DNA of 64,000 nucleotides from Paenibacillus sp. FSL H7-0737 (GTDB lineage: Bacteria > Bacillota > Bacilli > Paenibacillales > Paenibacillaceae), in contig NZ_CP009279.1 in assembly GCF_000758545.1 (NCBI RefSeq), forward strand, positions 1,612,001 through 1,676,000. The letters are read 5' to 3'. Numbering within the stretch: position 1 is the first letter of the stretch; each line of letters starts with the position of its first letter. Shown here piece after piece: positions 28,603 to 38,786 of the stretch. The notes under the pieces were generated by a model. It saw only the letters and a list, made by a program, of their open reading frames with translations. It was not told the origin of the DNA and searched no databases. Both the position numbers and the translations under genes were made by a program.

Positions 28603-28632
28603 TTGACAGCATCAGAAAGTGAATACTATACT
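28603..28632 (+). promoter_or_regulatory. Strong sigma-A-type promoter upstream of an attenuator-like terminator
   Basis: TTGACA (28603-28608) and TATACT (28627-28632), spacing 18 bp. The -35 is perfect and the -10 matches 5 of 6 bases. The predicted start, near 28639, is only about 17 nt before a strong terminator stem. Confidence 0.65.
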
Positions 28633-28655
28633 TTTGAGGAATAGGACGAAGCACG

Positions 28656-28687
28656 TCCCGTACCCATATTGGGTGCGGGATTTTTTT
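28656..28687 (+). terminator. Terminator directly behind a promoter and ahead of the nuclease-like gene
   Basis: TCCCGTACCC-ATATT-GGGTGCGGGA, a 10-bp stem with one wobble or mismatch, is followed by seven T. The 5' arm overlaps a shorter possible stem, GGACG-AAGCA-CGTCC (28644-28658). It may end a leader RNA of about 50 nt or act as attenuator for the gene at 28710; it may also stop read-through from the rhodanese genes. Confidence 0.85.
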
Positions 28688-28709
28688 ATGCCAAGAAGGA
28701 GGGTGACGT

Positions 28710-29336
28710 ATGGGATTTACGGAGGAGCATCGTAAGTGGGTAGAGGATCATATTAGTAGAAGAACGGGAGAACGGCGGGGGAGATTGGAGCGTGGACATG
28801 GCCATGGTGAGCGGATGTTTTTGGAGAAGGTATGGTGGCCTATGATGGGGCATTTCAATAATCTTCATCCTGAATATGAAGTGTTGGATTGGCGTAGTAA
28901 GCCCTACTTTGTTGATTTTGTGTGGAAGCCTGGCCAGGTTAAGTTTGCGTTTGAAGTTAAAGGCTACGGCCCACATGTGCAAAATACAGACCGAACACGC
29001 TACAGACAGGAGCTGAATCGAGAGACTTATCTGCAAATCGCGGGTTATCGGGTCGTGGCGATTCCTTATGATGATCTGGATGCGAATCCTGAACTTACGA
29101 TTACTTTGCTAAGACCATTGCTGATGCCTTACCTCGCTGTGAAGATGGAGGAGCAGGGGGAGTTTAGCCGACTGGAGCGTGATATTTTGCGGATTGCGGT
29201 TCGCACGAATGGGTGCATTCGTCCGGTTGATTTGGTGAGGGAGCTTGGGATTGATAAGCGTACGGCTCGAAAAGGACTGAGTGCTCTCAGCCAAAAAAGG
29301 AAAGTTCTCCCCAATAGTTTCTCAGGAGAGCGGTAG
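28710..29336 (+). CDS. PD-(D/E)xK nuclease-like (DUF559/Vsr-type) protein with C-terminal winged helix
   Basis: 208 residues. Residues 30-140 read as a restriction-endonuclease-like fold: GERMFLEKVWWPMM with Glu in helix 1, then VDFVW (Asp69) and FAFEVKGYGPH (Glu82-x-Lys84), and later RETYLQIAGYRVVAIPYDDL, the helix-strand pattern of DUF559/Vsr proteins. Residues 150-205 are a winged HTH (LERDILRIAVRTNGCIRPVDLVRELGIDKRTARKGLSAL). AAGGAGGGTGA gives a strong ribosome binding site. The gene stands between a terminator-bearing leader and the 51-bp repeat array. The family function is unknown to me; it may be a nuclease, a degraded nuclease or a DNA-binding regulator. Confidence 0.8.
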   Translation: MGFTEEHRKWVEDHISRRTGERRGRLERGHGHGERMFLEKVWWPMMGHFNNLHPEYEVLDWRSKPYFVDFVWKPGQVKFAFEVKGYGPHVQNTDRTRYRQELNRETYLQIAGYRVVAIPYDDLDANPELTITLLRPLLMPYLAVKMEEQGEFSRLERDILRIAVRTNGCIRPVDLVRELGIDKRTARKGLSALSQKRKVLPNSFSGER

Positions 29337-29396
29337 AGTCTGCAAATATGAATATATCCATTCCTTAAAGGATATTCAGTTATGGTAAGGCAATTA

Positions 29397-29817
29397 AAAT
29401 ACCCCAGATGCGACCCAAAAGGCTGAAATTGAGCAAAAGAGGGGTAGAAATACCCCAGATGCGACCCAAAAGGCTGGAATTGAGCAAAAGAGGGGTAGAA
29501 ATACCCCAGATGCGACCCAAAAGGCTGGAATTGAGCAAAAGAGGGGTAAAAATACCCCAGATGCGACCTAAAAGGCTGGAATTGAGCAAAAGAGGGGTAG
29601 AAATACCCCAGATGCGACCCAAAAGGCTGGAATTGAGCAAAAGAGGGGTGAAAATACCCCAGATGCGACCCAAAAGGCTGGAATTGAGCAAAAGAGGGGT
29701 AAAAATACCCCAGATGCGACCCAAAAGGCTGGAAATGAGCAAAAGAGGGGTGAAAATACCCCAGATGCGACCCAAAAGGCTGGAATTGAGCGAAAGAGGG
29801 GTAAAAATACCCCAGAT
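29397..29817. repeat. Eight 51-bp tandem repeats with hairpin-forming junctions
   Basis: Units start at 29401, 29452, 29503, 29554, 29605, 29656, 29707 and 29758, each 51 bp, with a ninth partial start at 29809. They differ by single bases. Every junction reads GGGGTR-AAA-TACCCC in the form GGGGTA-GAAA-TACCCC, GGGGTA-AAAA-TACCCC or GGGGTG-AAAA-TACCCC, so stems are kept (G-C or G-U) while loop bases vary. As 51 is divisible by three, several frames stay open through the array (17-residue protein repeats), but none has a convincing ribosome binding site. There is no unique spacer between units, so it is not CRISPR. The remaining bases up to 30054 hold no recognized feature. Confidence 0.95.
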
Positions 29818-38230: not shown

Positions 38231-38256
38231 ACGATGTAACTTAATAGTTATTGTTT

Positions 38257-38387
38257 TCTAGGGTTCCGCAGCTGGTGCACAGCTGGTCTGGTCCGAGGGG
38301 AAACGCACGAACAGCATCGTTCGTGTCTACACGGAGGGATAAAAGCCCGGGAGGTATCGTTATAAATGACGATGACCTTCCGGGCTT
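38257..38387 (+). ncRNA. Guanidine-I (ykkC/yxkD) riboswitch
   Basis: The leader shows the conserved aptamer blocks in order: TCTAGGGTTCCGCAG, TGGTCTGGTCCGAG, AAACGCACGA, then ACACGGAGGGATAAAAGCCCGGG. These are the hallmark sequences of guanidine-I. The 3' GCCCGGGAGGT block can join the terminator (38343-38387), so guanidine binding would favor the antiterminated form. It lies directly upstream of a pair of SMR exporter genes, the classic guanidine-I target (ykkCD). Identity is from motif recognition without covariance search, but the match is extensive. Confidence 0.93.
38343..38387 (+). terminator. Riboswitch expression-platform terminator
   Basis: AAGCCCGGGAGGT (38343-38355) pairs with ACCTTCCGGGCTT (38375-38387) with one mismatch. 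An inner ATCGT/ACGAT pair lies in the loop region, and T-rich sequence follows. The 5' arm overlaps the riboswitch 3' block. Confidence 0.88.
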
Positions 38388-38441: not shown

Positions 38442-38786
38442 ATGAAGAACAATTCAGAGTGGTTAAAGGTAGTTGGTGCAGCTGTTTTCGAGGTCATGTG
38501 GGTCATCGGCTTAAAACATGCTTCCACGATGTGGGAGTGGCTGATAACTGTGGTAGCTATAATAATAAGCTTCTATGTGATGATTTCAGCGAGTACCAAA
38601 TTGCCGGTCGGCACGGTATATTCCGTGTTTGTTGGTCTAGGAACTGCAGGGACAGTAGTTGCGGACATGGTTTTATTCGGAGAACCGTTCAAGTTGATGA
38701 AGCTGGTTCTAGTGGTTATTTTGCTGGCAGGCGTTATAGGATTGAAAATGGTGACCAAAGAAGCCGAAGTAAAGGGGGAGTCTTAA
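38442..38786 (+). CDS. ykkC: SMR-family guanidinium exporter subunit (YkkC-like)
   Basis: 114 residues with four membrane helices. The conserved SMR Glu is in AAVFEVMWVIGLKHA (residue 16-17), and the GTVYSVFVGLGTAGTVVADMVLFGE block is present. Together with the next gene it forms a heteromeric small multidrug resistance transporter. Under a guanidine-I riboswitch such pairs export guanidinium in exchange for protons. AAGGAGGG lies before the ATG. The gene symbol is given by analogy with the Bacillus ykkCD pair. Confidence 0.9.
   Translation: MKNNSEWLKVVGAAVFEVMWVIGLKHASTMWEWLITVVAIIISFYVMISASTKLPVGTVYSVFVGLGTAGTVVADMVLFGEPFKLMKLVLVVILLAGVIGLKMVTKEAEVKGES

Follow-up and report, generated by a model that had tools for sequence, protein, structure and literature searches.

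A gene for a predicted Vsr-like nuclease is linked to an attenuator-like leader and to replication-oriented hairpin arrays in Paenibacillus

In many Paenibacillus genomes, a gene for a predicted nuclease with a winged helix is strongly linked to an attenuator-like leader and to an array of hairpin repeats. Further arrays of the same class are dispersed over the chromosome in an orientation that follows the replication strand, and taken together, these parts have the look of a system, as yet undescribed, that spreads repeats (or marks the chromosome). No published description of it was found in the open-licence papers searched. The linkage was observed directly; the binding, cutting, and amplification attributed to the nuclease, and the signal to which the attenuator would respond, we infer. 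The window (the whole stretch of 64,000 nucleotides that was analyzed) lies in the 6.77-Mb, single-contig genome of Paenibacillus sp. FSL H7-0737, here termed the host genome.

Organization of the locus

All features of the locus are on the forward strand. It begins with a σA-like promoter (TTGACA-N18-TATACT; positions 28603 to 28632, with the −35 at 28603 to 28608 and the −10 at 28627 to 28632), which is identical or nearly so in five of six close orthologues as aligned and is also present in the sixth on the correct strand. A leader hairpin (hairpin 1, GGACG-AAGCA-CGTCC; 28644 to 28658) overlaps a terminator hairpin with a T-run (28655 to 28687; stem, 28655 to 28666 and 28670 to 28681; T-run up to 28687), the two having CGTCC in common. 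With an RNA fold z score of −4.7 for the terminator, the original prediction of a near-consensus promoter soon meeting a strong terminator was borne out.

The open reading frame that follows (28710 to 29336) encodes 208 amino acids, predicted to form a Vsr/DUF559-like PD-(D/E)XK nuclease joined to a MarR-like winged helix. Asp69, Glu82, and Lys84 are present as had been claimed, but 208 residues is not the intact length. Compared with the intact orthologues examined, the last ∼25 residues are lost through an apparent frameshift at a run of six A residues (29293 to 29298). Intact orthologues have ∼225 amino acids and a C terminus of the form RYEYIHSF.D..LW, and the window encodes the same end in another frame past the A run (G000:1641290-1641385; E value, 1.6e−5). 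The TAA stop of the orthologous frame (29386 to 29388) lies 7 bp ahead of an array of 8.3 units of 51 bp with 96% match (29396 to 29817), in which each unit consists of one hairpin (GGGGTA-NAAA-TACCCC) and a spacer. The expected eight 51-bp repeats were found, although they begin 60 rather than 65 bp past the annotated stop. The array exceeds what chance would give: a sample of 400 kb, drawn at even spacing from the host genome, contained no 51-bp array. The neighbors of the gene, held in synteny, are rhodanese genes and a GH3 glycosidase gene. Elsewhere in the window, a Guanidine-I riboswitch (38247 to 38355; 93.8 bits) was identified just 5′ of two short ORFs, beginning at 38442 and 38787 and resembling SMR-type transporters.

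The attenuator-like leader

The leader element is present within 130 nt of the start codon at 115 of 131 family loci and is common to both main clades of the family (I and II). In a set of 39 diverse leaders, hairpin 1 (GGACG-AAGMA-CGTCC type) was paired in 85% of cells, with 11 both-side changes compared with 2.5 in shuffles, and the terminator helix showed 75 both-side cells versus 29 in shuffles (score, 0.613 versus 0.286). As the terminator reuses the 3′ arm of hairpin 1, the two helices are mutually exclusive, and both covary; with a terminator as the second helix, this constitutes the anatomy of an attenuator. The leader shares these features with known attenuator leaders and riboswitches but differs in that Rfam returned no family at gathering score for the site in the window, and a known RNA family was rejected as its identity on these grounds.

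A covariance model of the leader was used to search 12 genomes. The strong matches examined were located at family genes or their remnants, save one or two that are unexplained. G009 and G027 carry leaders without an intact gene, including the orphan clade I leaders L258 (G009:C74) and L254 (G027:C43), where the gene is missing or broken; by inspection, the sequence 3′ of the orphan leader in G027 resembles a broken family gene.

The nuclease-winged-helix family

The AlphaFold model of the window protein, a confident one (pLDDT, 85.8), has the order helix-strand-strand-strand-helix-strand followed by a winged helix, and the expected α-β-β-β-α-β core with D and ExK is present in it. Structure comparison matched the nuclease half to the catalytic domain of I-Bth0305I (3r3p; Z score, 10.3; 97 of 97 residues) and to Vsr (1cw0; Z score, 9.7 over 105 residues), and the C-terminal half to MarR-type regulators (Z scores up to 10.9); Foldseek alone gave no match at an E value of <0.001. 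The original assignment of a PD-(D/E)xK core plus winged helix thus agrees with the model, and the protein is predicted to be a Vsr/I-Bth0305I-like PD-(D/E)XK nuclease fused to a MarR-like winged helix. By structure comparison, the nuclease fold is shared with Vsr and I-Bth0305I (an EDxHD homing endonuclease). The family described here differs from these and from DUF559 in its canonical D...ExK site, its C-terminal MarR-like winged helix, and its link to hairpin arrays, and the mismatch-repair or intron context was not seen.

Asp69 is conserved in 78 of 78 members, Glu82 in 77, and Lys84 in 74, and the site is conserved in both clades. The four Lys84 exceptions form a single subclade in which Glu34 is also lost, all having Asn at position 34. 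In one of these, L059 (G000:C1:2914909-2917017), Lys84 is replaced by Met and Glu34 by Asn, and the gene is followed by a 52-bp array of ∼22 copies.

Pfam DUF559 scored 12.5 bits against the window protein (gathering score, 20.6) and weakly matched 51 of 78 members at an E value of ≤0.1 (best member, 1.6e−6). NCBIfam gave no match for the window protein. Membership in a known named family was rejected, as the matches of members in NCBIfam, PADLOC, and PHROGs were weak and were largely to regulators or winged helices.

Family genes were identified in 82 of 100 Paenibacillus genomes, with up to 10 copies per genome; the host genome has four full-length members and one fragment. The family is largely confined to Paenibacillaceae. 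Outside the genus, a phylum-wide sample yielded a single full-length match (L144, G226:C10:10350-10982; E value, 8e−59). It comes from G226, which is assigned to a different class of the phylum, and could reflect horizontal transfer or contamination. No copies were found in phages and only one plasmid record was found, and a phage or plasmid origin was rejected accordingly.

Hairpin arrays beside the gene

In a tree of 85 protein sequences, the window gene belongs to a fully supported clade I, the arrays of which have a 51- or 52-bp period and start approximately −1 to +120 bp from the stop codon. Under a strict TRF criterion (array start within −20 to +200 bp of the stop), 21 of 37 clade I loci carry a tandem array, and many of the remainder lie at assembly gaps or contig ends, have an apparent insertion, or retain a few degenerate copies at the site. 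An array at the stop is present in nearly every readable clade I locus. Away from clade I genes, the background is 0.003 to 0.005 arrays/kb. Leader, gene, and array recur as a positional unit in relatives, so that what had been deduced from position alone was right.

Each unit contains one hairpin with a stem closed by an A-T pair and a four-base, usually A-rich loop. The stems differ strongly between species yet stay paired, with 68 both-side changed cells versus 24 in shuffles and a covariation score of 0.439 versus 0.153; sliding controls fail. Because cores were selected by at least four of five inner pairs, the outer three pairs provide the fairer test, and these covary too. The spacer has no conserved structure (mean fold z score over 47 arrays, −0.07), and a second hairpin within it was rejected for that reason. 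A protein-coding repeat was likewise rejected, since several gene-adjacent arrays have a 52-bp period, which breaks any frame.

Clade II (∼42 sequences, L096 to L141) has the same leader and an intact active site but mostly lacks arrays, and the association with an array is thus not needed for the function of the family. At a few family genes (L085, L113, L123, L127, and others), a 51-bp array ends ∼150 to 260 bp 5′ of the start codon, and these upstream arrays replace or accompany downstream ones.

Dispersed arrays and their tie to the gene

Twelve arrays of this class were identified in the host genome, and 11 of them adjoin unrelated genes. Such a distribution had been regarded in advance as evidence against a unit, and it is indeed what was found, but in the form of a dispersed family, of which a single "mother" copy sits beside the gene. 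Most of the orphan arrays in the host lie 3′ of a co-directional gene, and one lies between divergent genes. In relatives, up to 308 array dimers were found per genome. Across 100 genomes, at least six array dimers were present in 39 of the 43 that have a clade I gene and in 3 of the 57 that lack one (Fisher, 1e−19), a co-occurrence that is partly confounded by phylogeny and rests on pattern searches that miss other core types (e.g., in G075, G097, and G098). Two of the three gene-less genomes with arrays are the orphan-leader genomes G009 and G027, in which arrays (127 and 41 dimers, respectively) outlast the lost gene. G056 carries the gene and has no dispersed arrays.

The core class follows the gene subclade. 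The CAACGGCANAAATGCCGTTG core has 13 to 159 copies in exactly the six genomes with an identified EVIHSFSD-type gene and 0 to 2 copies in the other 94, the ACGGTATAAATCCCGTAGA core occurs almost only in company of the window subclade, and the corresponding core was also present in three genomes that possess both gene subclades. Between two species, five orphan arrays occupy orthologous positions although their units have been replaced, indicating that the arrays are old and are homogenized within each site. In L053, a perfect CAACC repeat of 36 copies (positions 2140 to 2320; G000:C1:754139-754319) was observed 183 bp 3′ of one 51-bp array.

Array orientation follows replication

GC skew places the terminus of the host chromosome between 3.5 and 3.82 Mb, and all host arrays are in the + orientation before it and in the − orientation after it. 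The same replichore orientation holds for all 189 dimers of G039 and all 38 core copies of G048. For gene-adjacent arrays, the replication strand was assigned from local GC skew over ∼20 kb, leaving out balanced loops. Read on the strand of the gene, the loop was A-rich for 26 of 26 leading-strand genes and T-rich for 5 of 5 lagging-strand genes, which represent at most four independent lineages (Fisher P, 6e−6). Array orientation therefore follows the replication strand and not the gene, and the suggestion that the repeats control expression of the gene is unsupported. A mutational A/T skew was rejected as the cause of loop orientation: the AT skew of the leading strand amounts to just 0.015, and similarly shaped hairpins elsewhere are evenly divided (450:439). 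Lagging-strand synthesis uses the strand bearing the A-rich loop as its template, and this strand is transiently single stranded.

Comparison with RAYT/REP and CRISPR

To our knowledge, HUH transposases are the enzymes with which REP-like repeats have been associated until now. The published genomic criteria for RAYT/REP are that repeat abundance depends on the gene, that orthologues are flanked by different repeats, and that leftovers remain after gene loss (PMC3686654). By analogy, the system described here appears to work like RAYT/REP, as all of these recur: repeat class and abundance are gene dependent, orthologues differ in the class they carry, and repeats persist once the gene is lost. 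Both systems also have intergenic palindromes in many dispersed copies, and in both one repeat class flanks the enzyme gene and matches the dispersed class, although here on one flank only. The substrate of TnpAREP is REP in folded, single-stranded form, and the enzyme distinguishes between strands (PMC8266576); the comparable asymmetry in Paenibacillus would be indirect, through orientation with the replication strand.

There are also differences. The enzyme is a predicted Vsr-like PD-(D/E)XK nuclease with a MarR-like winged helix and not an HUH/Y1 enzyme such as TnpAREP, the repeats are arranged head to tail, in arrays with a 51/52-bp period to one side of the gene, rather than as inverted doublets, and there is an attenuator leader. 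A GTAG/CGTC tag beside the palindrome was not conserved across 38 cores, although some cores have CCCGTAGA by sequence. No match to the Y1 transposase (PF01797) was found in the host genome or in five array-rich relatives (G006, G008, G009, G039, and G059), and RAYT was rejected as the mover; with the defining enzyme absent from the host genome, the system is not a member of RAYT/REP.

Regular spacing, a palindromic repeat, and a nuclease adjoining the array are also features of CRISPR arrays. Here, however, the spacer repeats with the unit at 96% identity over the full 51 bp, unique spacers are absent, and the arrays are dispersed over the chromosome. PADLOC matches to Cas-linked models (CARF/Csa3) were weak and fell within the winged helix.

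Possible mechanism and alternative explanations

The window locus could plausibly be the "mother" copy of a repeat-propagating system resembling RAYT/REP with an unrelated enzyme, a reading that we favor tentatively and place a little short of probable. Still more tentatively, it is proposed that the PD-(D/E)XK nuclease with its winged helix drives amplification in 51-bp steps and a replication-oriented spread, and that the attenuator limits the nuclease. The protein would recognize the A-loop hairpin folded on the transiently single-stranded lagging-strand template and would nick or cut it; repair or template switching would then duplicate and homogenize units, which would occasionally be seeded elsewhere with their orientation kept. 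Conditional termination in the leader would presumably hold down expression of the nuclease, and autoregulation is a possible route. Propagation is favored by the leader-gene-array unit, stem covariation, co-occurrence, the match of classes, replication orientation, the lack of RAYT in the host, the conservation of the catalytic residues in both clades, and the orthologous orphan arrays with replaced units. Against it stand the phylogenetic share in the co-occurrence, the mostly array-free clade II, the arrays that remain after gene loss, G056 with its gene and no dispersed arrays, and the host member that lacks Lys84 and Glu34 and keeps its ∼22-copy array.

That last member would fit the main alternative, which we regard as rather unlikely: the arrays could be selected, oriented tandem binding sites for the winged-helix protein, with a role in fork pausing, segregation, condensation, or repair and a nuclease fold that binds or occasionally cuts. 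Strict replichore orientation, a constant period of 51/52 bp (about five helical turns), and the long retention of orthologous sites while their sequence changes would all fit. However, the stems vary freely among orthologues with >90% protein identity, which is unusual for a sequence-specific double-stranded site, and several genomes of the genus with only clade II genes have no arrays. The array could instead be a 3′ untranslated region of the gene (stabilizer, terminator, sponge, or autoregulatory target) with a protein that acts on RNA, given that no terminator separates it from the stop codon, where it starts, that its stems covary, that a structured RNA leader exists, and that orphan arrays are mostly 3′ of co-directional genes. 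This appears improbable, as orientation relative to the gene flips for lagging-strand genes, one orphan array lies between divergent genes, and the leader is common to clade II, which lacks arrays.

Slippage-prone 51-bp arrays might also have been inherited, without function, in one Paenibacillus lineage marked by the nuclease clade, and both arrays and gene are largely lineage bound, with arrays that outlive the gene. An adjacency far above background density already disfavors this explanation, both core classes are present in genomes that have two gene subclades, and orientation and covariation need a cause; we consider it very improbable. Equally doubtful is a defense against phages or plasmids, in which the nuclease would target invaders and the host arrays would serve as decoys or marks. 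Weak PADLOC matches to PDC-S01 and AbiEi-like domains and the variable number of paralogues per genome point that way, but those matches are mostly to the winged helix, the rhodanese and glycosidase neighbors are not defense genes, and phage copies are lacking and plasmids contributed a single record. As a whole, the earlier interpretation of the locus was partly supported.

Implications

If propagation by the nuclease is correct, the system would be an independent PD-(D/E)XK counterpart of RAYT/REP, and a second, unrelated enzyme with gene-linked, replication-oriented palindromes would demonstrate the repeated emergence of intragenomic populations of this kind. A testable explanation would also be at hand for the numerous arrays of array-bearing Paenibacillus genomes, for which no description was found. 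Given their strict strand rule, the arrays could serve as a natural reporter of structure on the lagging strand. The conserved leader, for its part, may be a new cis-regulatory RNA. The orphan-leader genomes G009 and G027 represent natural gene-loss strains in which array decay can be followed, and the function of clade II could reveal the ancestral role of the family.
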